Positions 1 through 21,379 of a stretch of DNA of 21,379 nucleotides are shown here, in pieces (the first letter of the stretch is position 1; each line of letters begins with the position of its first letter). Origin of the DNA: a virus. The DNA lies in IMG/VR virus record IMGVR_UViG_3300037189_022842, positions 1 through 21,379 of that record; one strand, 5' to 3'. Below the pieces are notes generated by a model that saw only the letters and a program-made list of their open reading frames with translations, searched no databases and was not told the DNA's origin. Position numbers and translations under genes: made by a program.

Positions 1-2493
1 AAGGGATTCAAACAAATTGGCTTTTGCTATTCCAACAAATAGTAATGAAATTGCAGCAAATGCAGCAATCATAACCAAAAGACTTTCTGGTTTTATGTTT
101 GCGGATTCATACAACACAGAAAGAGCAATTATTGCAGCTAATACAATAGAAACAGCGACAGTAAACATAGTAACTGTTTTTGCGACATTCATCAATGATT
201 CAGTTACAGATTTTCCTTTTTTCTCCGTATCTTTTGGATCATCTTTATCTTTATCTTTTCCATCTTTATCTTTACCGCCAAAAAGACTACTAATAGTAGA
301 ACTAAGTTTTGTAAAGCCTTTTGAAATTGCTCCTATACCAGCACCACTAAACAACCCAGCAATTAATCCTCTAACAAGTCCTGCAACCATTGCAGGACCA
401 AGAAATATTGCAAGACCACCAAGTATGATTTTAGTCATATGTGGCTGAATATATTTTTCATATAAAGTTTTCATTAACTCAACAAAAACTTTGCCCAATT
501 CTTTTATTACTGGTCCAAGCTCTACTACCATATAAGCAAAAGCTTGTTTGAACATACCTGCCAAACCATCTCCAACCTCACCAGCAGCAGAAGTTAATGA
601 AGATGGATTTTTAATAAATTCAACAATACCTTTAAGCAAATCTTTCATTGCACCAAGACTGTATTTGATGCCTTGAACAAAAATAATTCCAATAGTCTTA
701 AAGAAAGTTTTCAAACCATCAAGGAATTTAGATCCTGCTGGGGTTCCTTTACTGAAAAAGTCAAAAAAGATTTTTTTCATGTTCTTCATGAAGTTTTCAA
801 CGCCCGCTTTTGGATCTGTTTTTAACAACAAAAAGAAATCACGAAATTCTCTAACAACATTTTTCATTAAGTTTCTAAATCGACTTGGATTGAACATATC
901 CTTTAGCCCACCAAGGATATCTTTAATACCGGGAAACAGTTTAACGAACATTCTACCAACTTCTCTACCGGCGTAATAAACTATTCGCATTGAACGTTGC
1001 AATGCCATTACAACTTCTCTAAACTCTCTTGTTCGTTTAATTCCAGAGAAAAATCCTTTCATGAATATTTCGATAAATCCACCTTTTAAGGCTTCCCCAC
1101 TTTTCACCAATCGCTGAATGGATTTAGCTAATTGCTGCATAGCTTCAGCTTGAGATATTTGAGTTTTTTGTTGTTTTTTCATTTGAGCGTCAAGTTGGGC
1201 TCCACTTAAAGCTCTATTTTTCTGAGCGAATGCAATTCGCAAATTTTGTTCATCCAACCCAGTTTGTTCAGAAAGCAATTTTCTTTGAGCATTCGTCATT
1301 TGCTCAATGTTTTGACCTGTTGCAAAAAATGCTTTACGGTATATTTCCATTTTTTCTGTAGCAGTTTGTGCATTTAGCAGTTTCATGCTATCAATTTGAA
1401 TACCAAAAGCTTCACTCAACTTAGCAGAAGATTGAGCAACATCTTCAAAATTCAAAGTTTTATCCATAACAGCTTTAAGAGCTTCAAGCGAAACACCTAA
1501 TTTTCTTGCATAGGTGCTTACAGAAAGCATTTCTTTTCTGCCCATGATACCAAACGATGCCGTTTCTTTTATCATGTACTCCATATCTTTGCCATACAAC
1601 TTAGCTGATATGCCAAATGCTCGTTCTGCTCTAGCAACGTCTTTAGTCAACTCTTTAACCATTTGTGCAGAAGACATACCAGCGTCTTGTGCAGACAAAA
1701 ACAAACCTTTAAATGCTTCACCGCTTAAATTAGTTGCTTTTCTTAGAACCGTAAAATCACTTTCTGCTCCTCTAAGTGAAGCAGAGAATTGATCAAATAT
1801 CGGTCCCATTTCTTGAGCAACTTTCATGTTTTCTCTTAATAAAGCTGCCAAACCTTCTCGGCCATAACCAAAAACTTGACCCATTTTAAGTCCAGAATCA
1901 CCTAGACCATTCATGCTTTCGGTCATGTTACGAATTGCTGCCGAGGTACCTATCTCTAAGTTACCAAATTCTCCACGTAATTCTTCAAGTGCTTCTCGAT
2001 AAGGATCAACACCTCCAGTTGCAGAATTTTGGAAGAAATCCATTAAACGACCGGGAAGAGACAAAAGTATTCCTCCCAAATCTTTCATCAGTCCCATAAC
2101 AGGACCAGCAAGTCTAAATAAAGACTTAACAAGGTTGTTAGAAAAATTCAATCCAGCTTTAAAACCATTTAAAAACTCTGCTGGAACCGCTAGTTTTTTT
2201 AACTTGTCTGTTATACCTTTTATCTTATTAGCTAAAACATCACCTTTTTCTGCTGCTTCACTTATTGATTCAGAGAATGATTTTGTTTTTTCTCCAGCCT
2301 GTGACATTGAATCAGCTAATTCTCTAGATTTGTTTTTGTCAAGGTTGTTATAACATTCTTGTGCTTTGCATAATGCATCCACTAAATCTGCTTGAGCTTG
2401 ATAAGCCCTTGTTTGCTGATCAGCTTGCATTGTTATCTGTTGCATGGTAGCTAACAGTTGTTGAGCAACTTTAAGATTATCAGCAATAGCCAT
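1..2493 (-). CDS. Tail tape-measure-like protein (3' part beyond window)
   Basis: An open frame runs from an ATG at 2493 to base 1 without a stop, giving at least 831 residues, so the C-terminus is missing. The start has a clear ribosome site (AGGAG about 9 bases upstream). The first ~80 residues are rich in Gln, Ala and Lys and look coiled-coil. The middle alternates helical segments with Gly/Leu stretches. Near residues 685-720 comes a hydrophobic Gly/Ala-rich region, then a Lys/Asp-rich linker (about 735-755), then further hydrophobic segments (about 775-825). Great length, helical character and late hydrophobic segments are typical of tape measure proteins, which set tail length and reach the host membrane during DNA ejection. 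I recognise the class, not a specific homologue. Base 2493 faces the plus-strand gene at 2558; a GATAAATA-like element on the minus strand (2547-2554) could be a late promoter. Confidence 0.72.
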   Translation of the reverse strand, partial: MAIADNLKVAQQLLATMQQITMQADQQTRAYQAQADLVDALCKAQECYNNLDKNKSRELADSMSQAGEKTKSFSESISEAAEKGDVLANKIKGITDKLKKLAVPAEFLNGFKAGLNFSNNLVKSLFRLAGPVMGLMKDLGGILLSLPGRLMDFFQNSATGGVDPYREALEELRGEFGNLEIGTSAAIRNMTESMNGLGDSGLKMGQVFGYGREGLAALLRENMKVAQEMGPIFDQFSASLRGAESDFTVLRKATNLSGEAFKGLFLSAQDAGMSSAQMVKELTKDVARAERAFGISAKLYGKDMEYMIKETASFGIMGRKEMLSVSTYARKLGVSLEALKAVMDKTLNFEDVAQSSAKLSEAFGIQIDSMKLLNAQTATEKMEIYRKAFFATGQNIEQMTNAQRKLLSEQTGLDEQNLRIAFAQKNRALSGAQLDAQMKKQQKTQISQAEAMQQLAKSIQRLVKSGEALKGGFIEIFMKGFFSGIKRTREFREVVMALQRSMRIVYYAGREVGRMFVKLFPGIKDILGGLKDMFNPSRFRNLMKNVVREFRDFFLLLKTDPKAGVENFMKNMKKIFFDFFSKGTPAGSKFLDGLKTFFKTIGIIFVQGIKYSLGAMKDLLKGIVEFIKNPSSLTSAAGEVGDGLAGMFKQAFAYMVVELGPVIKELGKVFVELMKTLYEKYIQPHMTKIILGGLAIFLGPAMVAGLVRGLIAGLFSGAGIGAISKGFTKLSSTISSLFGGKDKDGKDKDKDDPKDTEKKGKSVTESLMNVAKTVTMFTVAVSIVLAAIIALSVLYESANIKPESLLVMIAAFAAISLLFVGIAKANLFESL

Positions 2494-3186: not shown

Positions 3187-3738
3187 ATGCCTAAGCTATC
3201 AAATACAGAATTCGCACAATTATTGCTAGAAGCAGTTGAAGAACTAACTGCTGAAATCGAAGAAAAAAAACACAAAAAAGATGCAGAAAAAGACGATGTT
3301 CGTAGAGACTATCGTACAGATCCTCTTTATCTTCCAAAAAAAGATAAATATCTTCTTTTTGATGAAGAACAACCAGAAGAAAATGTTAACATTCTGGAAT
3401 TGGGCGCTGTTTTAGAAGACGGAACACCTGTTTGCGAAGGTTGCCTTGTCGCATACATGAACGAACATCATAAATTGTTAACAGAAGCCGATTATCATGG
3501 TCGCAAGGTTCCTCTTGGAAAACCAATGCCCAACGATCCCGGCGAAAAAAAGAAATCAAAAGTATATGTTCGTGATCCAAAAACGGGCAACGTTAAAAAA
3601 GTAACTTTTGGAGACAGAAATATGAGGATTAAAAAGAATAATCCAAAACGTCGCAAAAGCTTTAGAGCTCGTCACAACTGTTCTAATCCCGGTCCACGGA
3701 CTAAAGCTAAGTTCTGGAGCTGTCGTGCTTGGGAATGA
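3187..3738 (+). CDS. Phage protein with conserved basic Cys/Trp C-terminal domain (183 aa)
   Basis: A 183-residue protein with GAGG about 9 bases before the ATG. The N-terminus is a helix (FAQLLLEAVEELTAEI) followed by a Lys/Glu/Asp-rich stretch. The middle holds CEGC near residue 80 and nearby His residues. The last ~60 residues, from KVYVRDPKTGNVKKV to FWSCRAWE, form a basic domain with FRARHNCSNPGP and a final WSCRAW. From memory, this ending recurs in many marine and T4-like phage proteins of unknown function (a DUF5872-like region); I cannot confirm the family name here. Two Cys in the domain plus CEGC could bind metal, which is inference. It ends the short plus-strand block and converges on the thymidine kinase end of the minus-strand operon. 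Confidence 0.7.
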   Translation: MPKLSNTEFAQLLLEAVEELTAEIEEKKHKKDAEKDDVRRDYRTDPLYLPKKDKYLLFDEEQPEENVNILELGAVLEDGTPVCEGCLVAYMNEHHKLLTEADYHGRKVPLGKPMPNDPGEKKKSKVYVRDPKTGNVKKVTFGDRNMRIKKNNPKRRKSFRARHNCSNPGPRTKAKFWSCRAWE

Positions 3739-4833: not shown

Positions 4834-5064
4834 TCAGGTAAATCTTTGAGTTTTGCCGTTCATGCCAAATTGTCTAGCTTTACCTGTAAGAGATCTAATA
4901 TCTGGAGTATTGTGATGAACGGCTTTAGATGGAATATCTGATTTGTTTTCTGTAGCTTTTGCAATTTCTGTATTAATTCGTTCTATTAGCCATCGTTTAT
5001 ATCTAACTGGGAAATTATAATAAGTTTCAACATCCATTCCGTAATAATAACCCAACAAAAACAT
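4834..5064 (-). CDS. gp51-like baseplate/tail assembly protein, likely expressed by frameshift from the gp26-like gene
   Basis: As a free-standing ORF it starts at ATG 5064 (76 aa), with only a weak GAG upstream. The frame stays open above that ATG back into the end of the gp26-like gene and reads GLTPDNLEEVLLEP, then MFLLGYYYGMDVETYYNFP. The continuous acidic helix followed by the YYNFPVRYKRWLIERIN block looks like one domain, so the ATG is probably not the true beginning. Its position right after the gp26 homologue matches T4 gene 51, a baseplate hub assembly factor, and the short helical 'Y-NFP-..W..' pattern resembles tail assembly chaperone tails. Assignment to gp51 rests on order and pattern, not alignment. 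See the frameshift feature at 5104-5116. Confidence 0.65.
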   Translation of the reverse strand: MFLLGYYYGMDVETYYNFPVRYKRWLIERINTEIAKATENKSDIPSKAVHHNTPDIRSLTGKARQFGMNGKTQRFT

Positions 5065-5089
5065 TGGCTCTAATAAAACTTCTTCAAGA

Positions 5090-5989
5090 TTATCGGGCGT
5101 TAGGCCAAAAAAAGCTTGGACCGAGTGGTACGGTCAAAACCTCCTGATGACCACAACTTGTGCATACAAAATCAGAACTCATATCAATTCCGGGTTCACC
5201 ATCATCAATAACCTTACGCAATGCCAAGCTATCTGCTGCTGGCATATATTGACAAAATTGGTTGATATATCCACGTTCTACAACACCGTCAATTGAAATA
5301 ATTGAATTCATAAGCTTGGTTGTAACAAGATTTTCTTGTACAATACCTTTCTTACGTTTTGCTTCAATGTCTTGAAGCATTCTTTCTTCTTCTCGACCAG
5401 TTAGAAACTTAAACACAACCACTTTCTTGGTTCTTGGCAAAGTAAATTCGAACGCATTTTGTCCTTCACCAATTTGGTGCAACCTTTGCAAATCAAGTTC
5501 TTTCACTGGTAGGTTTTCAAGATTTAAGCTCCAATCTTGTTGAGCCTCACATGATGGGCAAGTAACCTTTGGTGAATAATCTGCACCATAGCCTGTGATG
5601 CGTACTGCAACCATTAATGCGTTACGATCACCAGAAATCATACCATTTACATCAATGTTTTTATCAATAACACAGCTTTTAATAAGCTCCGTAATAACTG
5701 TACCCTTACGAACAAGGGTACGATTCATCAGAATGTCTTCTTCTTTAGCTGTCATGGCTTTAATATCAACTGATTCAGCCATATGAAGAGGACCATCAGG
5801 ATACACAAGTCCACGGCTAGGTAGTGGAACAGATGCTACAGGTAGTTCAAAACCAAAATCACGTTTAGCTGCTTGTGCAGCATTTTGCACAGGCATACCT
5901 TGAACCACTGGTAAGCCACCTTGAGCAGCTTGTTGAGCAGCAAAAATACTGTTTTTAAGTTCTCTAGCTTCTTCTTCTGTCATTGCCAT
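5090..5989 (-). CDS. 26: T4 gp26-like baseplate protein
   Basis: A 299-residue protein resembling the T4 gp26 family (Pfam T4_baseplate, named from memory), which takes part in assembly of the baseplate hub in contractile tails. A Gln/Ala-rich N-terminus (1-42) precedes a core beginning FGFELPVASVPLPSRGLVYP (46-64), with the family-like 'LPS.G..YP' and 'MTAKEEDIL-NR' (79-90) signatures. Two CxxC pairs, C144/C147 and C276/C279, suggest a zinc ribbon. The C-terminus is VPLGPSFFWPNAR. The ATG at 5989 has GGAG at 8-base spacing; an ATG two codons on is less well placed. The start lies in a 9-base inverted repeat (5988-6027). The last codons contain a T7 run from which the ribosome could enter the downstream gp51-like frame. 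Confidence 0.82.
   Translation of the reverse strand: MAMTEEEARELKNSIFAAQQAAQGGLPVVQGMPVQNAAQAAKRDFGFELPVASVPLPSRGLVYPDGPLHMAESVDIKAMTAKEEDILMNRTLVRKGTVITELIKSCVIDKNIDVNGMISGDRNALMVAVRITGYGADYSPKVTCPSCEAQQDWSLNLENLPVKELDLQRLHQIGEGQNAFEFTLPRTKKVVVFKFLTGREEERMLQDIEAKRKKGIVQENLVTTKLMNSIISIDGVVERGYINQFCQYMPAADSLALRKVIDDGEPGIDMSSDFVCTSCGHQEVLTVPLGPSFFWPNAR
5104..5116 (-). other. Candidate programmed frameshift site (T7 run, +1 or -2)
   Basis: On the minus strand the gp26-like frame reads AGC TTT TTT TGG CCT AAC GCC CGA TAA. After the T7 run (5113 to 5107), reading GGC CTA ACG CCC enters the frame of the downstream small ORF, which stays open to its stop at 4834. A +1 step gives S-F-F-G-L-T; a -2 step gives S-F-F-F-G-L-T. 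The -1 frame is closed at once (TTG GCC TAA). The joined product would have 384 residues: 294 from the gp26-like part plus 90. Frameshifting in tail chaperone gene pairs is well established, -1 in lambda G/GT and -2 in Mu. Its use here is inference. Confidence 0.6.
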
Positions 5990-7489: not shown

Positions 7490-8176
7490 TTATGTTCCAC
7501 TAGCTATTGTTTTTTTAAGTTTCCGCACAAACAACCAGCAATTAATATCTTTGTATATTTGATCTTTATTAACTTGTTTTTCCATTAAATTTTTACGTAC
7601 AAGTTTTGGAAACGGCCAAGTCCAGTAATAAAATTGAGTACATAACTGTCCTTCAATCCATTCATAAATTGGAATTAATTCATCTCCAGATTGTTTATCT
7701 TCCAATTTAGCAAACATTAAACTTGTTCGATATGCTCTTAATTCAAACCAATAACGAAATGGTGCTGGAATAGGAGCAAGAAACAACAAAAACAATAAAC
7801 ACCAAATAAATTGTATTTTCCAAGCCGCTAAAAGGCTTAATAGAGCCAATGCAGCAAGTGATTGAGGAAATAGATATAAAAAACTAAAAAGTAAGCTAGT
7901 AAAGCGTTTAGAGTCAGCAACGTGTACTGTTTCATGCACAACAACACGCAACATGCTTTCACTGTCAGGATTAACCAATCCTTGATCGGGCCAATATATC
8001 GTATCTCCAATTGTTGTTATGTATTTTGTCATAAACTCTGGAGAAATCTTGGTTTTTGAAAACAACCAACCAATTAATCTCATAAGTTTTGATGAACTTT
8101 TTGGTACAATTTTTACATTTCCGTAATTTTTACTAACTTGGCTTATAAAGCTTTCTACATCCGGTGGTAAGCTCAT
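7490..8176 (-). CDS. Membrane-anchored zinc-metalloprotease-like protein (228 aa)
   Basis: A 228-residue protein with a HETVH zinc-protease motif at residues 81-85. A possible third ligand is E145 in FELRAY, a gluzincin-like ExxA arrangement. Between these lie two strongly hydrophobic segments, about 94-117 and 122-137, likely a membrane hairpin. This places the motif near the membrane and the C-terminal 90 residues on the same side as the N-terminal domain. The C-terminal part is rich in Trp, Tyr and Lys. GGAG lies 7 bases before the ATG. It leads the minus-strand operon of virion genes. I do not know the family; the enzyme call rests on the HExxH motif and a plausible third ligand. Possible roles include processing a host envelope protein or a virion protein. 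Activity is unproven. Confidence 0.6.
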   Translation of the reverse strand: MSLPPDVESFISQVSKNYGNVKIVPKSSSKLMRLIGWLFSKTKISPEFMTKYITTIGDTIYWPDQGLVNPDSESMLRVVVHETVHVADSKRFTSLLFSFLYLFPQSLAALALLSLLAAWKIQFIWCLLFLLFLAPIPAPFRYWFELRAYRTSLMFAKLEDKQSGDELIPIYEWIEGQLCTQFYYWTWPFPKLVRKNLMEKQVNKDQIYKDINCWLFVRKLKKTIASGT

Positions 8177-8333: not shown

Positions 8334-9665
8334 ATGAACATGACAAACCAAAATTCCGACACTACCAACAAGGTAACTTCTATCGACGTTCGTCATGAGC
8401 CTGACCCTAACGTGTCAAGCGACGAATACAGGTTTGACCAAGAATTCCTTCAGCTTCATCAGGAAGAGCCTTTCTTTGGCACTATTTCCATGATGCTGCC
8501 AAAGGTTGCTGATTGGAAGGTTGATACTGCTTATGTCTGTGCAGACAGACAAGGCAATGTCAAGCTTGGTTATAACCCTGACTTCATGCGTGGTCTTATT
8601 TCCAAGCATCGCAAGGGTGTTTTCAAGCATGAACTTTGCCATGTGCTGTTTATGCACATTGCAGAGCGTGCTGTCGCTGACCGTCGTCGTTCTAGGCTTT
8701 GGAACGTTGCTACCGATCTTGCTATTAACAGCATTATCGGTGATAGCAATTTGCCTGAGTTTTGCCTTCTTCCCGGCAGGGCTCCAAAGACCGACGATCC
8801 TAAGCTTGCGGATCTTATTCGTAATTTCCCCAAGATGGAGAGTGCTGATTGGTACATGGCTCGTCTTGAGGAATATGCCGAGCAGAATGGTAATAAGAAC
8901 GGTGAAGGGGAATATACCCTTGAAATCGGAAATGGCGAGGGTGAAACCCTTGATTCGCATGGTCAATGGGGAGAAGTACCCGAAGAAATGCGTGATATTG
9001 TGCGTGAGCGTATTAGGGAACTCGTTGAAAAGGGAGCTAAGGAAGCGCAGCGTCGAGGATCATGGGGTTCTGTTCCAAACGAAATGATTGGAGCAATTGA
9101 AGCTATGCTTCGCAATGAGCTCGATTGGAAGGCAATTCTGCGTATGTTTATCGGACGGGCTCGGAGCATTGAGCGTCAAAGTACCATGAAGCGTATCAAT
9201 AAGCGTTTGCCTTATCTGATGCCGGGAGCAAAGCGTAGCACTGTTGCTAACGTTTTGTGGGCTATCGATCAATCTGGATCGGTTAGTGACAGTGACGTTC
9301 AACGTGGTCTTGCAGAAGCTTTTGCTTGCAGCAAGGAAGCACAAATCGATATCGTCAATTTCGATACGGAAATTGATATGTCCAGCTTCAAGAGCATTAA
9401 GAACGGTCAGAATTTTCAGTGGAAGCGTACCCGTTGTGGTGGTACTGATTTTGATTGTGTTCAAAAGTTCTTGAACGATTCTAAGAATCGTGGTAAGTAC
9501 AGCGCAGTAATCATGTTTACTGATGGTTATGCTCCTAAGATGGGTGCAATTGTTGGCACAAGGGTTTTGTGGGTAATCACTGAGCATGGTGATGCTGGTG
9601 CTCCCCGTCCCGGTGATCTCGTGGTCAAGATGGGTAAGGAGGACAAGTCCGTTAAGAGGGCTTGA
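8334..9665 (+). CDS. Metallopeptidase-VWA fusion protein (DUF2201/CobT-like)
   Basis: A 443-residue two-part protein. The N-terminal part carries HELCHVLFMH (H99, E100, H103), followed by RLWNVATDLAIN, where D128 is the likely third zinc ligand. This matches the putative metallopeptidase domain often named DUF2201 N-terminal. A Gly/Glu/Asn-rich linker (about 185-212) leads to a helical section. The C-terminal VWA-like domain has a MIDAS: D312-x-S314-x-S316 (IDQSGSVS), T371 (GGTDF) and D397 (FTDGY). VWA proteins of this kind usually work with a MoxR/CobS AAA+ ATPase, and one is encoded at 9955. No clear ribosome site precedes the ATG; an ATG two codons later is an alternative. Codon choice (AAG, CGT, GGT, CTT) is less AT-driven than in the neighbours. 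The substrate is unknown. Confidence 0.85.
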   Translation: MNMTNQNSDTTNKVTSIDVRHEPDPNVSSDEYRFDQEFLQLHQEEPFFGTISMMLPKVADWKVDTAYVCADRQGNVKLGYNPDFMRGLISKHRKGVFKHELCHVLFMHIAERAVADRRRSRLWNVATDLAINSIIGDSNLPEFCLLPGRAPKTDDPKLADLIRNFPKMESADWYMARLEEYAEQNGNKNGEGEYTLEIGNGEGETLDSHGQWGEVPEEMRDIVRERIRELVEKGAKEAQRRGSWGSVPNEMIGAIEAMLRNELDWKAILRMFIGRARSIERQSTMKRINKRLPYLMPGAKRSTVANVLWAIDQSGSVSDSDVQRGLAEAFACSKEAQIDIVNFDTEIDMSSFKSIKNGQNFQWKRTRCGGTDFDCVQKFLNDSKNRGKYSAVIMFTDGYAPKMGAIVGTRVLWVITEHGDAGAPRPGDLVVKMGKEDKSVKRA

Positions 9666-9673
9666 TTAATTAA

Positions 9674-9874
9674 ATGTTTAACTACCTTTGGCCCGAAGAA
9701 AGCATTTGTGAGTGCTGCCATGAACCCAGAAAAGGAGCAATGCGCTATATTTGCAATGAACCAATTTATTTCATTTGTGAGGCTTGTGACCCTGTTGCTC
9801 GCAGAGAAGCAGTAAAATATACATTTTCTCTCGCTCGAAGCGATTATTCAAAGCTAAATCCAAGCGTTTATTGA
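9674..9874 (+). CDS. Small CxxC zinc-ribbon-like protein (66 aa)
   Basis: A 66-residue protein with CECC at residues 12-15 and CEAC at about 35-38, spaced like a small zinc ribbon, plus aromatic residues (MFNYLWPEE, YFICEACD). It begins 8 bases after the VWA gene and ends 80 bases before the AAA+ gene, so it belongs to the same cassette by position. No clear ribosome site is seen, so it may depend on translation of the gene upstream. Unlike its flanking genes it uses ordinary AT-leaning codons. I recognise no family. It could be an adaptor for the AAA+/VWA pair, which is inference. Confidence 0.6.
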   Translation: MFNYLWPEESICECCHEPRKGAMRYICNEPIYFICEACDPVARREAVKYTFSLARSDYSKLNPSVY

Positions 9875-9954
9875 AAAAATAAAAAAATAAAAATAAGCTT
9901 TAGACAATTAGAAACACCTGCTATACTGGTTTCAGAAAGGTTAAGGAACAACAA
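9875..9954 (+). promoter_or_regulatory. Likely strong promoter with extended -10 and A-rich UP-like tract
   Basis: Upstream of the AAA+ gene lies an A-rich tract (about 9872-9895), then TTAGAC (9900-9905) 16 bases before TGCTATACT (9919-9927), an extended -10 hexamer. AAGGA sits 8 bases before the ATG at 9955. Together these look like a strong host-sigma70 promoter and leader. This would give the AAA+ gene its own transcription as well as read-through from the VWA gene. No transcription data support it. Confidence 0.5.
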
Positions 9955-11262
9955 ATGGCTCTCTCGGCTCTCTCTCTCGATATCAAGTCCACCAAGAATC
10001 TCTTCAAGCGGTTTTCGTCTAACCGTGCGACCATGCTCCGAGGTCGTCATGGTATCGGCAAGTCTCAGGTTGTTTACCAGATCGCTGGTGAACTCCATCA
10101 CGATTTTTACATGGATCGTGGTAACTGCGAGCGTGTTACCGCTGCTCTTTGTAAGGATTCTGGTTTTGCTAAGATGCTCGCTTCTTTCTGGAAGCGTAAC
10201 GGCAGCAACCCTGATTATGCGGATTATCCCCAAAACCTTTGGCACTATGACATGGGTATCCCTGTTGTGGAGCGTCGTCTGTCTCAGATGACTGAGGGTG
10301 ATATTACCGGTATTCCTTTCGAGGGTAACCGTGGTGGTACGGTGTTTCGAGCCTGTGAGTGGCTTCTTGCTACCTGCGAGTTTCCCTGCGTCCTGTTCCT
10401 TGATGAGCTCAACCGAGCGATCAAGGGTGTTGAGCAAGCTACCTTCCAGCTCGCTGATAGCAAGGCTTTCGATGGTAACCTGCTGCATGATGGTACTCGC
10501 ATCATGGTTGCGGTCAACGTCGGTGACCAGTATGACGTTACTCCAATGGACCCTGCGGCCCTGAGCCGTTACGCTGTTGTTGATCTTGATCCTACCGTTC
10601 AAGATTGGCTTGATTGGGCTTCCATTAACTGCAATCAGGCAATGGTTGAGTTTATTCGCTCTAACGAGCGTTATCTGGAGTATAAGGATACTTGTGAGCC
10701 TAACAAGAAGTATCCTGATCGTCGTGCATGGGGTAATCTTGATGCCGAGCTTCTTCAGAGCGGTCTTTATGAAGATTTCAACAATGTTTTGTTCTGCCAC
10801 ATGGCTGCAAGCATGGTTGGTTTTGAGGCTGCTAATTCCTTCTGGAAGTTTGTGAAGGAGCGTGGTGCAGATATCTCCGCTGATGATGTTCTTAAGGATT
10901 GGAACGCTGCGAAGAGCCGTCTCCCCTCCGACGAGGTTATTCGTCACGGCAAGTATATCGATATCATGGGTAAGCTGGATCACAAGCTTAAGAACCATGT
11001 TCTCACTGATGCCGAGGCTAAGGAAATGGCTGCATATATGCATGATTGCCCTGCCGAGGTTATGATGGGAGCTTGGAAGGCTGTTAACATGCAACAAAGC
11101 AATGCCTTCAAGGTTCACCCTCACATTGAGTCGCTCTTGCTGCGCCTCTTCACTACCCCTGCTCCCGCTGCTGCGGCAACCACTAAGAGCTCTGCTCCCG
11201 CTACTCCCACTGCTCCCGCTGCTGCTGGTACCCCTGTCAAGGCTCGCACTCGCAAGCGTTGA
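9955..11262 (+). CDS. MoxR/CobS-like AAA+ ATPase
   Basis: A 435-residue ATPase of the AAA+ MoxR/CobS type, expected to form hexameric rings that use ATP to remodel partners through a VWA protein. Walker A is GRHGIGKS (30-37). Walker B is VLFLDE (146-151) followed by LNRA. N188 in VAVNVG fits sensor 1, and R205 in PAALSRYAVV fits the arginine finger. The GDITGIPFEG stretch (115-124) matches the usual MoxR substrate loop region. The C-terminus is a disordered Ala/Pro/Thr tail (about 395-425) ending in basic KARTRKR, which may contact nucleic acid or a partner (inference). Base composition and codons (CTC, AAG, TCC, CGT) differ clearly from neighbouring AT-rich genes, suggesting selection for high expression or recent transfer. 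An opposite-strand open frame of similar size is a by-product of this codon bias. Confidence 0.88.
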   Translation: MALSALSLDIKSTKNLFKRFSSNRATMLRGRHGIGKSQVVYQIAGELHHDFYMDRGNCERVTAALCKDSGFAKMLASFWKRNGSNPDYADYPQNLWHYDMGIPVVERRLSQMTEGDITGIPFEGNRGGTVFRACEWLLATCEFPCVLFLDELNRAIKGVEQATFQLADSKAFDGNLLHDGTRIMVAVNVGDQYDVTPMDPAALSRYAVVDLDPTVQDWLDWASINCNQAMVEFIRSNERYLEYKDTCEPNKKYPDRRAWGNLDAELLQSGLYEDFNNVLFCHMAASMVGFEAANSFWKFVKERGADISADDVLKDWNAAKSRLPSDEVIRHGKYIDIMGKLDHKLKNHVLTDAEAKEMAAYMHDCPAEVMMGAWKAVNMQQSNAFKVHPHIESLLLRLFTTPAPAAAATTKSSAPATPTAPAAAGTPVKARTRKR

Positions 11263-18032: not shown

Positions 18033-19442
18033 TCAGTGGAACATTAGATAGACACCAGCAACATTTGGATCTTTTGCTGGACGATCATTTTCACCGGGAA
18101 GAATGATAACGTTAACTTTTTCTTTTGTTCTTTTAAGAGTGTCTTCAATGTCTTCATATTCTGCCATTGTAAGCATTGGATAAGAGTTTTTGAATTTAAC
18201 TTCTGGACTGTTTTTGATTGCTTTTTTGAGAATATCATCTTTACCGGGTTTAACGATAAATTTACCTTCTTCTTCTCCTTCTCCAATTCTTTCAATCACA
18301 TCTTGTTTCAACATGTCATCTTTTACAGACTTAGGAACAATTTGGGAGAACAAATCTTTTTCTGGATGAATTTCACGTTCTTCTTCTGGTTTGGCTCCAA
18401 TTGATTTGCGAAGTAGCAAGCCTTTGTCTTGGAATGGTTCAACCATCTTAGCACGTTTTGTGTAAGCATAGAATTGAATAAAGTCATGATAGAAGGATGG
18501 AAGAGCATCTTTTACACGTTCGATGATATGCAATGATAAACGAAGATAATCTTCAGAGAAAAAGTCTCCAGCGTCATGCCAACGAATAATTGTTTTGATT
18601 CCTCTTGGCAATTCTTTTGTTGGTGTTGCATGGGCTTTTACAACTTTAACAATTTCATCAACAGCTTTGTCAATATATTTGTCTGGATGATTATAAAGAA
18701 GATTCAATGTAAGATTTTGTCTTTCAGAAACAGCTTGGAACTGCACATAGCCACCTTTGGTGGCATAACAAACATGAATACAAGATCCTGCTGATGGACA
18801 AGTGTTTATAATTTTAAACTTGTTTTCTTTTTCATCAAACACCATACCCATGATTGCGGGGATACCAATATTGTAAAATGCTTCATACTCTCCAGTTGAG
18901 CTCTTCTTCATTTTTTCGTTTTGTTTTAGAAGTTTAAACTTTGGATTGCTGTAATCTGTTAGTTTTCTTGAAAGAACATCCAAATCAATTGGTTTGTTTT
19001 GTTCATCAACAACAACGATATCATCTTCTTGTTTTGTTTCTCTCTTGCCTTTCGCAAGAGAACCAGCAGGAACTATTGTTGCGGCTGCTGTGCTAGGATG
19101 AATGAATGGTACATTTGATGGCAAAGCACCTTTTTTTGCACGCACTGCAAGAATGTCTGACAATTTTTCTGGTGATACTTCTGCTCCTTTAATATCTCCA
19201 TCTGGTGTAAGAACTGTTTGTGGTGGTTTTGGAAAGCGTTTTTGGTAACCTTTTTTTGCTTCAAAGATAATCTCATAAAGACTAACAAACTTTTGCTCGT
19301 TTGTCATTTCTTGAGATTCTTCTGCACCGTAGTCTCTAACAAATTCCGCTGGGGTCATTACTTCTGCATTTGCAAATATGTCTTTGCCAGAAACGTCAAC
19401 AGCTTCTTTAAACAAAAATCTTTTATAGCTTTTATCTCTCAT
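18033..19442 (-). CDS. Gp88-like protein with CX5CX3C motif and capsid-targeting-like N-terminus (469 aa)
   Basis: The core resembles the phage Gene-88 family (recalled from mycobacteriophage Gp88; function unknown). INTCPSAGSCIHVCYATKGG holds C215, C221 and C225. An R/N-containing helix (SERQNLTLNLLYNHP) follows. RWHDAGDFFSEDYL spans 287-300, then FYAYTKR. The three Cys and the W-H-D-x-G-D motif suggest a metal or cluster site, which is inference. About 200 residues precede this core: a short start SYKRFLFKEAVDV resembling a T4 capsid-targeting sequence, then charged, partly disordered stretches. The C-terminus has a Lys/Glu/Gly-rich section and a final conserved-looking VAGVYLMFH. AAGGAAG precedes the ATG. 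If the N-terminus is a targeting peptide, this protein would be injected with the DNA. Confidence 0.75.
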   Translation of the reverse strand: MRDKSYKRFLFKEAVDVSGKDIFANAEVMTPAEFVRDYGAEESQEMTNEQKFVSLYEIIFEAKKGYQKRFPKPPQTVLTPDGDIKGAEVSPEKLSDILAVRAKKGALPSNVPFIHPSTAAATIVPAGSLAKGKRETKQEDDIVVVDEQNKPIDLDVLSRKLTDYSNPKFKLLKQNEKMKKSSTGEYEAFYNIGIPAIMGMVFDEKENKFKIINTCPSAGSCIHVCYATKGGYVQFQAVSERQNLTLNLLYNHPDKYIDKAVDEIVKVVKAHATPTKELPRGIKTIIRWHDAGDFFSEDYLRLSLHIIERVKDALPSFYHDFIQFYAYTKRAKMVEPFQDKGLLLRKSIGAKPEEEREIHPEKDLFSQIVPKSVKDDMLKQDVIERIGEGEEEGKFIVKPGKDDILKKAIKNSPEVKFKNSYPMLTMAEYEDIEDTLKRTKEKVNVIILPGENDRPAKDPNVAGVYLMFH

Positions 19443-19830: not shown

Positions 19831-20601
19831 TTATTCTAAATAACTTGCGTCTGAACCATACATTCTTGAAAAGAATTTTCTACCAGCTTCTGTGATAGTT
19901 GTAGCAATATCAGTAACAGTATATTTTGGAAAATTATTTTTTCGTATAGCAGTAATTGCTTCTTTACCTTTTTTATTTAATTCTGATGTGTCCATAGGAG
20001 AAGAAAGATTGTAAACCCAGAGATAACCATATTTCTCTGGGTTTAATCCTTTTTCTTTAAGCCAATCAAGGAATTGTTGTTCGTTTTTGTAATCAACTTT
20101 ATTTTCTTCAATTTTTTTAAAATATTCTTCTAAATCAGTTTTTGCTGCTTCTGTTATTTCCATACGTGGTAGCAAGTACCAAGATCCCCATTGTCCAAGC
20201 CATTTACGTTTGTAAATTCCTTTGTTTGATAATTCAAACATTTTTTGCCAAACGAATTCGCTTGCAGGCTTAAGAGTGTTGTCACACATTAACCAATTCT
20301 TGTTGCCAATATGTTGCATTGCAATTTGATAAGCTAATGGACCATAGTTTAAAACACCAGCACTACCATTTACCTTATATAAGTCAATTTCTTCTTGAAA
20401 GAAATCAATTAAACCAACAATCGCACCTGCGTCGTCTAGTTTGTTTGAATCTTCATCAAAATTTTCAATTGCTTTCTTTGTATCAAACAAAATAATAGCA
20501 GTCCCAGAAATCTTAGAAACAATAAATCCAACGCCCTCTGAAAGAGCTTCTTGGGGACTTTTTGCTTTTTCATTTAAAAATAGTAATGGATATAGTTTCA
20601 T
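19831..20601 (-). CDS. Paralogous phage protein B (256 aa), capsid-targeting-like start
   Basis: The frame extends upstream to 20658, but the ATG at 20601 is preferred. It has AGGAG 8 bases upstream and gives MKLYPLLFLNEKAKSPQEAL, nearly identical at the start to its neighbour's MKLYQLLFLNED. The two proteins share a pattern through most of their length, including LSEG near residue 20, YGPLAYQIAM, NTLKPASEFVWQKMFEL and a 'FL-WLK....P..-G-LW-Y' block. From memory, 'yGP..Y..am......sD...k..a..vW' occurs in uncharacterised phage virion-associated, GNAT-like proteins; I cannot assign activity. It starts 10 bases after the upstream paralogue, so the pair arose by tandem duplication and diverged widely. 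Confidence 0.78.
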   Translation of the reverse strand: MKLYPLLFLNEKAKSPQEALSEGVGFIVSKISGTAIILFDTKKAIENFDEDSNKLDDAGAIVGLIDFFQEEIDLYKVNGSAGVLNYGPLAYQIAMQHIGNKNWLMCDNTLKPASEFVWQKMFELSNKGIYKRKWLGQWGSWYLLPRMEITEAAKTDLEEYFKKIEENKVDYKNEQQFLDWLKEKGLNPEKYGYLWVYNLSSPMDTSELNKKGKEAITAIRKNNFPKYTVTDIATTITEAGRKFFSRMYGSDASYLE

Positions 20602-20611
20602 GTCACCACTC

Positions 20612-21379
20612 CTAGTAACTTTTTTCTGTGCCATATACGTTTGTAAAAAACACTGCACCTATTCTTGAGATAACTTGCTTGTTTATATTAAACATATCTG
20701 AAATTTCTTGAACAGCATTTTCTCCATTAGCAAGCAATGTTCCAAAACTTCCATCAAAGTCTTTTTTACGATATGCCCAAAGAAACCCAAACTCTTTTGG
20801 TTCTTTGTTGTTTGCTTTCAACCACTCTAAAAATCTTTTTTCGTATGGATCTCCATAACTGTCTTTAAGATAAGCTTTAATTGCAGCAGCATCATAACCA
20901 AGTTCAGTTCGACTCATAAAAGCTGATTGGCTAAAAGTTCTAAGAAAAGCACGCTCATATACATTCTTTTCGCTTAATTCATACATCTTTTGCCAGACTT
21001 TTAAACTTGCTGGTTTAAGAGTTGTATCTGAAATAAGCCAACTTGGTTTAATTACATACATCAACAATTGATACATTAATGGACCAAATCCAGAAATAGC
21101 TCCACTTGTGCTTACTGAGGTTAAATCTGATAAAATGTCATCATAGCTTATATAACCAAATATAATTCGAGCTTTTGGTTCTGCTGCTTTCAAGATATCG
21201 TCTGTTGTGAAAGTGCCATTTTCATTTATAGCTTTTTCAACAAACTCTTTGAACTTGCTAGGACTAAACAAAGTAATTCGTTTTGAATTAGAATCAAAGA
21301 TTGCTGCAAGACCTTCAGACAATGCATCACTCCCCGGTCGCATGTCTTCATTTAAAAATAACAATTGATATAATTTCAT
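20612..21379 (-). CDS. Paralogous phage protein A (255 aa), capsid-targeting-like start
   Basis: The ATG lies exactly at the window edge (21379), so its ribosome site is not visible and an upstream extension cannot be excluded. Close similarity of MKLYQLLFLNED to the paralogue's chosen start supports it. Residues ~95-140 (GFGPLMYQLLM, SDTTLKPASLKVWQKMYELS) match the paralogue best, as do FLEWLKANNKEPKEFGFLWAY and the C-terminal NVYGTEKSY against RMYGSDASYLE. The paralogue instead carries its own acidic insertions. No signal peptide or membrane segment is seen. The function is unknown. The LNE following the hydrophobic start fits the T4 gp21 protease preference (hydrophobic-x-Glu), so it may be a processed internal capsid protein (inference). 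Confidence 0.75.
   Translation of the reverse strand: MKLYQLLFLNEDMRPGSDALSEGLAAIFDSNSKRITLFSPSKFKEFVEKAINENGTFTTDDILKAAEPKARIIFGYISYDDILSDLTSVSTSGAISGFGPLMYQLLMYVIKPSWLISDTTLKPASLKVWQKMYELSEKNVYERAFLRTFSQSAFMSRTELGYDAAAIKAYLKDSYGDPYEKRFLEWLKANNKEPKEFGFLWAYRKKDFDGSFGTLLANGENAVQEISDMFNINKQVISRIGAVFFTNVYGTEKSY

Follow-up and report, generated by a model that had tools for sequence, protein, structure and literature searches.

Positions 5989 to 4834 (minus strand) of the analyzed phage sequence are best read as one recoded gene (probability roughly 0.9), which would encode a tail assembly chaperone pair consisting of a short form and a long form, the latter being reached through a +1 slip of the ribosome. 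The frameshift site of this gene recurs in more than 200 related phage sequences; the arrangement is far beyond chance, and the observation is real. The whole stretch of DNA examined, referred to as the window, comprises 21,379 nucleotides (positions 1 to 21,379 of the IMG/VR record IMGVR_UViG_3300037189_022842). A preliminary description of this DNA had proposed that a gp26-like and a gp51-like open reading frame (ORF) are joined by a +1 or -2 shift following the G/GT logic, a proposal that held and was narrowed to +1 by the site variants TTC TTT TGG, TTC TTT CGT, and CTG TTT CGC.

The gp26-like ORF (5090..5989, minus strand), predicted to represent the short form in the zero frame, encodes 299 aa and was assigned to the family PF12322 (T4_baseplate) in the Pfam search (E=3.7e-16, 59.9 bits at a cut-off of 24.5), and to phrog_150 (baseplate hub) in the PHROG search (E=1.9e-20). 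At its end, the minus strand reads CCA AGC TTT TTT TGG CCT AAC GCC CGA TAA, featuring a run of seven T (5113-5107) and the zero-frame stop (5092-5090). The frameshift site, being TTT TTT TGG CCT in frame-0 codons, is located at 5102..5113 (minus strand), with UUU as the putative P-site codon, UGG as the A-site codon, and GGC as the A-site codon after a +1 shift; the exact 12-mer TTYTTTTGGCCT was found only once in the window, namely at this site. Starting from GGC (5106-5104), the +1 frame translates into GLTPDNLEEVLLEP-MFLLGYYYGM... and is open until the stop at 4836-4834. The resulting gp51-like extension (4834..5106, minus strand) comprises 90 codons plus the stop and would form the C-domain of the long form, the computed length of the +1 fusion being 384 aa, which agrees with the approximately 384 residues predicted beforehand. 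From GGC to the zero-frame stop (5090..5106, minus strand), both frames appear to be coding, as deduced from the sequence and from the codon-by-codon conservation around the site. The first ATG of the +1 frame (5062..5064, minus strand) follows 14 codons in and is a conceivable, poorly conserved internal start. The -1 frame was confirmed to be closed, since two codons past the site are followed by a stop (LA*).

Conservation and coding character of the +1 frame

The window protein, used to search viral contigs, retrieved 21 relatives, four of them at 75-84% identity and the others at 35-40%, and all 21 featured a TTY-type site followed by TGG and had kept the +1 continuation. When the divergent gp26 proteins were all aligned together, no stretch turned out to be sufficiently conserved for a scan of the collection. 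A profile scan added 80 viral and 16 genome-contig loci, of which 95 were usable; the +1 continuation was detected in 93 of these 95, the remaining two contigs stopping a few bases past the site. After the collapse of duplicates (n=109), the sites were distributed among TTT TTT TGG CCT (90), TTT CTT TGG CCT (9), TTC TTT TGG CCT (6), and the rarer TTT TTT TGG TCT (3) and TTT TTT TGG CCC (1), with the zero-frame stop following 2-9 codons past the site across all 109. To examine the arrangement independently of any protein query, the 18-mer GACTTTTTTTGGCCTRAC was searched for at the DNA level in viral contigs, revealing at least 120 stretches, including 118 loci with new ids, some of which are the same contigs as in the earlier searches under other ids. 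Among the matches listed, gp26 was read in frame 0 in 118 of 118, and the C-domain was found in the +1 frame in 117, the last one leaving its contig after four codons. The conserved site and the frame relation are thereby established by comparison: a short ORF with a C-terminal extension in another frame, connected by a putative shift near the 3' end and conserved in relatives, as in G/GT pairs.

These data also bear on a sequencing or assembly indel in a continuous gene, a sequencing indel being the main alternative in the preliminary description, and on the decay of a fused gene. Homopolymer runs are error-prone; however, the same frame relation recurred in over 200 loci that stem from independent assemblies and include complete cultured phages, with a zero-frame stop within 2-9 codons in every case. 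An indel or decay is thus refuted by the comparative data, its probability being practically nil. Independent assemblies kept the same frame relation, and relatives with separated ORFs, which would have spoken against the proposal, were not encountered apart from one distant locus. In that locus (L028; uncultured phage LR756511, approximately 3268-3275), the C-domain starts at an ATG of its own that overlaps the zero-frame stop (TAATG), with no +1 shift. In this distant member, which falls on the +1 side of the tree described below, frameshifting was apparently lost in favour of coupling. In another locus (L121), the gp26 ORF carries TTT TTT TGG plus a terminal TTT TGA, a second site that resembles the RF2 +1 context and has the same frame relation.

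That the +1 frame is coding was established from its substitution pattern. Within the 14 codons that separate the site from the window ATG position, comparisons of related pairs past the zero-frame stop yielded 620, 305, and 2064 substitutions at +1 codon positions 1, 2, and 3, respectively, and 1643 synonymous versus 745 non-synonymous single-base codon changes, the pairs being non-independent in both counts. Stops occurred within 55 codons in the other two frames in 105/106 and 106/106 sequences, while the +1 frame was open. The earlier reading of the 14 codons above the ATG as sensible coding sequence is thus borne out, the frame being open from 5106 to 4834 and its substitutions being biased towards third positions. 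Moreover, 11 loci (10 complete and one truncated) have no ATG, GTG, or TTG in the open +1 frame before domain codon 28, and 28 loci lack an ATG ahead of the domain. Because the frame preceding the ATG shows the evolution of coding sequence, and because a start codon ahead of the domain is missing from 10 complete loci, the extension is most probably reached by frameshifting.

The C-domain could otherwise be a separate small protein translated from an internal start (ATG 5064 in the window), perhaps by translational coupling and without any fusion. Such an interpretation is suggested by the ATG 14 codons in, by the tiny ORF often annotated at this place (36 aa in immuto, 46 aa in S-RIM8), and by the TAATG-coupled start of L028. 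It is nevertheless considered very improbable, since protein-coding selection acts on the frame ahead of the ATG, the loci lacking start codons before the domain core would have no means of initiation, the domain is present as an in-frame fusion in T4 gp51, and the invariant TTT.TGG.CCT site would be left unexplained.

Codon usage at the site points in the same direction as the predicted frameshift. The slip codon was TTT in 100 of 100 Phe-type sites, although the usage of the individual genes would predict approximately 71. Genomes preferring TTC, e.g., L040 and L049, were no exception, and in the locus L053, which has 0 TTT and 9 TTC codons elsewhere, the site reads TTT CTT TGG. Likewise, the Pro codon following TGG was CCT in 105 of 106 Pro sites, versus 29% in the same ORFs. 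Part of this bias is due to dual coding, as GGC CTN specifies Gly-Leu, and this share in turn speaks for +1 reading.

Direction and proposed mechanism of the slip

A frame-0 UUU followed by U or C was found near the stop in all 117 +1 loci, among them the cultured phages Mel-JY01 of Microcystis, immuto of Flavobacterium, SP-15 of Bacillus, GXN1, LIS04, BRock, and RM378. Since UUU is followed by U or C at each of these loci, tRNA-Phe can re-pair one base forward, on UUU or UUC. A T6 run is absent from 19 of the 117 loci (e.g., TTCTTTTGG, TTTCTTTGG, and CTGTTTCGC), in which the +1 extension is still present. The slippery T7 run emphasized in the preliminary description is indeed present in the window and coincides with the conserved slip site, but as judged from the aligned loci the essential element is UUU followed by U or C, usually UUY UUU UGG CCU, and not the T7 run as such.

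These variants also allow the direction of the slip to be addressed. A -2 shift, as reported for phage Mu, would insert one extra Phe and reaches the same frame as +1 on TTT TTT TGG, the type represented by 94 of the 117 sites. At TTC TTT TGG (6 unique), TTC TTT CGT, TTC TTT CGG, and CTG TTT CGC, however, it would need tRNA-Phe on UCU or UGU, whereas +1 lands on UUU or UUC at the same sites; the -2 shift is therefore regarded as improbable. Slippage of the RNA polymerase on the T7 run, leading to mixed mRNAs instead of ribosomal frameshifting, would be in line with the seven-T homopolymer in the window and is used by some phages and bacteria, but the 19 sites without a T6 run keep the same +1 extension, making this explanation highly unlikely. 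In consequence of the variants without a T run (TTC TTT TGG, TTT CTT TGG, and CTG TTT CGC), both processes are disfavoured as general mechanisms, and the shift can be narrowed to +1 on the basis of the compared loci.

For the preferred +1 slip, we infer shifting in vivo and its efficiency, the slippage of tRNA-Phe in the P site, and the pause at the A site as follows. Most ribosomes would read to TAA at 5090 and produce the gp26-like short form of 299 aa (TAC-N). A minority would pause when the slow codon UGG occupies the A site and the P site holds tRNA-Phe paired to UUU; this tRNA would then slip one base forward (UUU_U), GGC would enter the A site, and +1 translation for 90 codons would yield the long form of 384 aa (TAC-NC). 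The usual A-site UGG, with GGC one base on, would represent a slow-against-fast pair favouring +1 slippage. The predicted junction peptide in the window is ...SFFGLTPD... for +1 and would be ...SFFFGLTPD... for -2, and the predicted junction-spanning sequence of the SP-15 fusion is ...NSEFFTPDSTTK....

Regarding stimulatory elements, no enrichment of a Shine-Dalgarno (SD)-like element was observed in the 24 nt upstream, where SD matches were as in control stretches. No clear RNA structure was detected near or downstream of the site (mean z of -0.73 versus -0.23 in control stretches), and the Rfam search gave no match in the window.

Relationship to T4 gp51, gene order, and family history

The small +1 ORF alone had no direct match in Pfam or PHROG, and direct profile comparison of the +1 C-domain with gp51 was weak (9%). 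A link was obtained through relatives in which a corresponding extension is reached by a -1 shift. Such -1 extensions were identified at T_TTT_TTC or T_TTT_TTT in cyanophage S-RIM8, Methylophilales phage Melnitz-1, Aeromonas ZPAH1, a KVP40-group vibriophage, and PhiW-14, at T_TTT_TTC in the jumbo phages Munch (L033), Paride (L034), and Atu_ph07 (L030), and at the less canonical GGTTTTC in Serratia 3M. Comparison of the +1 with the -1 C-domain profiles reached 95.7% (E 8.7e-9), and that of the -1 C-domains with the C-terminus of T4 and Aes508 gp51 reached 95.8% (E 6.6e-9), column-permuted controls of the C-domain profile comparison scoring at most 15 bits versus 42. Homology of the +1 to the -1 C-domains, and through them to the gp51 C-terminus, is thus established at the profile level, indicating indirectly that the +1 extension is the counterpart of the T4 gp51 C-terminal domain. 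The term 'gp51-like' used earlier for the small ORF is consequently supported by the profile-profile links through the -1 relatives, but not by any direct Pfam or PHROG match.

T4 gp26 and gp51 both belong to PF12322 and differ by the C-domain. As gp51 covers positions 13-280 of phrog_150 versus 14-235 for gp26, gp51 corresponds to the long form and gp26 to the short form. In S-RIM8, a 46-aa piece of the -1 extension bears the gp51 name 'baseplate hub assembly catalyst' as its annotation. In the published phage genomes L030, L033, L034, and L133-L138, the -1 extensions (at T_TTT_TTC/T, and at GGTTTTC in L138) are unannotated or half-annotated, with only a stray ORF of 46-59 aa or nothing being called.

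In immuto, LIS04, and SP-15, the gene order is sheath-tube-gp26-(extension)-tape measure, the upstream neighbour in immuto being annotated as 'tail completion'. The location between the genes for the tube (or its annotated equivalent) and the tape measure, where lambda G/GT lies, was accordingly found in these three phages, while the tube gene is non-adjacent in the window. Approximately 2.3 kb downstream on the same strand, the window encodes a product of 831 aa with a long helical/hydrophobic composition (1..2493, minus strand; incomplete at the window edge), which probably represents the tail tape measure protein, as inferred from the gene order in relatives; it had no significant PHROG match, and Pfam gave a sub-threshold coiled-coil match only.

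Elsewhere in the window, a GP88-family protein (PF17338, E=1.1e-21) is encoded at 18033-19442 (minus strand), and the adjacent ORFs of approximately 255-275 aa at 19831-20658 and 20612-21379 (minus strand) resemble tandem paralogues, both beginning with KLYxLLFLNE and having several common motifs but no Pfam match. A 228-aa ORF at 7490-8176 (minus strand) features an HETVH zinc-protease-like motif and hydrophobic segments, with no Pfam match. At 8334-11262 (plus strand), a DUF2201 metallopeptidase/VWA protein adjoins an AAA ATPase, resembling a phage-borne MoxR-VWA pair.

Separate AF2 models were computed for the short form and the C-domain. The short-form model (mean pLDDT 89.5) had its highest-Z PDB matches with 3klu (YqbN; Z 5.2) and 2ob9 (HK97 tail assembly chaperone; Z 4.9), both below the secure range, and plain Foldseek against HK97 gave an E of 1.7. 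YqbN is a relative of phage tail assembly chaperones. The modelled likeness to these folds is suggestive only, as a Z of about 5 can reflect a common arrangement. The C-domain model is helical (pLDDT of approximately 92 for residues 11-50); in isolation, it had no significant match in a structural search among viral models, and no solved structure related by sequence was found.

Taken together, the gp26-like gene and its extension very probably constitute a G/GT-type tail assembly chaperone pair, with the +1 extension, in the best explanation, being in all likelihood the counterpart of lambda T. If the pair works as lambda G/GT does, the short form would serve to coat the tape measure protein, and recruiting tail tube subunits would fall to the long form. 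In a review of T4 tail assembly, gp26 and gp51 are listed as hub assembly chaperones, gp51 being required yet absent from the particle (PMC3004832), which is consistent with a chaperone role.

When a tree was built from the shared domain, all +1 members fell on one side of a branch with a support of 84/58; -1 members were found on the T4/cyanophage side as well as among the jumbo phages, and duplicates of the T4 type grouped together (95/74). The tree fits one -1/+1 switch and one duplication; its support is moderate, several of its branches are long, and its root is not firm. It appears reasonably likely, with less confidence than for the gene itself, that a so far undescribed, stop-independent +1 element (UUY UUU UGG CCU, with UUU followed by U or C as its core) was kept across a large and diverse lineage, and also that one chaperone family makes its short/long pair in three ways (-1, +1, and the T4 duplication), the tree being compatible with a single -1/+1 switch.

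Comparison with known frameshifting systems

Tail-chaperone frameshifting as a kind is already known, and the identity of the T4 pair is published. Vladimirov, Gautam, and Davidson (2022) are cited for the identification of T4 gp26/gp51 as tail assembly chaperones (in PMC10885494 and PMC12846349), for T4-like phages possessing one short and one fused long copy (in PMC10885494), and for polyT -1 signals (in PMC12846349). The connection of T4 baseplate genes with G/GT made in the preliminary description therefore holds, but, according to these citing papers, it was already published. According to the review by Atkins et al. (2016), G-T frameshifting is widely conserved, T4 being the exception, and proceeds by -1, -2, or +1 depending on the phage (PMC5009743), and a method paper of 2024 stated that no general motif is known for forward frameshifts (PMC10885494). 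No description of a UUY UUU UGG CCU +1 site was found in literature searches, which covered Vladimirov et al. 2022 through citing papers only.

What seems to be new is the stop-independent +1 site UUY UUU UGG CCU, its strict conservation across the large lineage, and the comparison of -1 shifting, +1 shifting, and duplication within a single family. Homologues of the T4 pair, T4 being the exception listed in PMC5009743, show these three solutions side by side. The predicted frameshift would account for a C-domain that was left as a stray hypothetical ORF of 36-46 aa, or missed, in published phage genomes. The +1 branch offers more than 200 natural copies of one short, directly assayable site.

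Known +1 sites include CUU_UGA of RF2 prfB and UUU_CGN of influenza PA-X and the amalgaviruses. With both, the sites described here would have in common that the P-site tRNA slips +1, and some members read UUU_CGN. They are not of the RF2 type, because the A site is occupied by UGG or another sense codon and an SD-like stimulator was not found. Nor do they represent the UUU_CGN class: UUU is the P-site codon in 117/117, but CGN was found in the A site of BRock, GXN1, and L130 only.

In haloviruses of the HF1 group, a +1 tail chaperone shift was proposed at TTT-CGC (PMC7230728). These viruses and HSTV-2 resemble the present family in the +1 direction, in UUU in the P site, and in the location between tube and tape measure genes (PMC7230728, PMC5009743), and the BRock site (CTG TTT CGC) is like theirs; they differ in being archaeal viruses, whereas the main class of the present family is characterized by A-site UGG and the extended UUY UUU UGG CCU block. 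Lambda G/GT (-1) and Mu (-2) likewise feature a short/long pair adjoining the tape measure gene, with the shift near the 3' end (PMC5009743), but are sequence-unrelated at the sensitivity used and shift in the other direction or by another step.

Other likenesses lie within the family itself. The T4-like phages with a -1 shift (S-RIM8, Melnitz, the KVP40 group, ZPAH1, and PhiW-14) and the jumbo phages (Munch, Paride, and Atu_ph07) share the position of the shift after ...FF and a homologous C-domain, but use -1 at T_TTT_TTC/T instead of +1 at TTY_TTT_TGG_CCT. For T4 gp26/gp51 (PF12322; phrog_150 and phrog_634), the short form is homologous to gp26 and the N-terminal part of gp51, and the C-domain, through the -1 relatives, to the gp51 C-terminus; T4 possesses two genes, a short copy and a fused long copy, whereas one gene with a predicted +1 shift would serve both purposes here.
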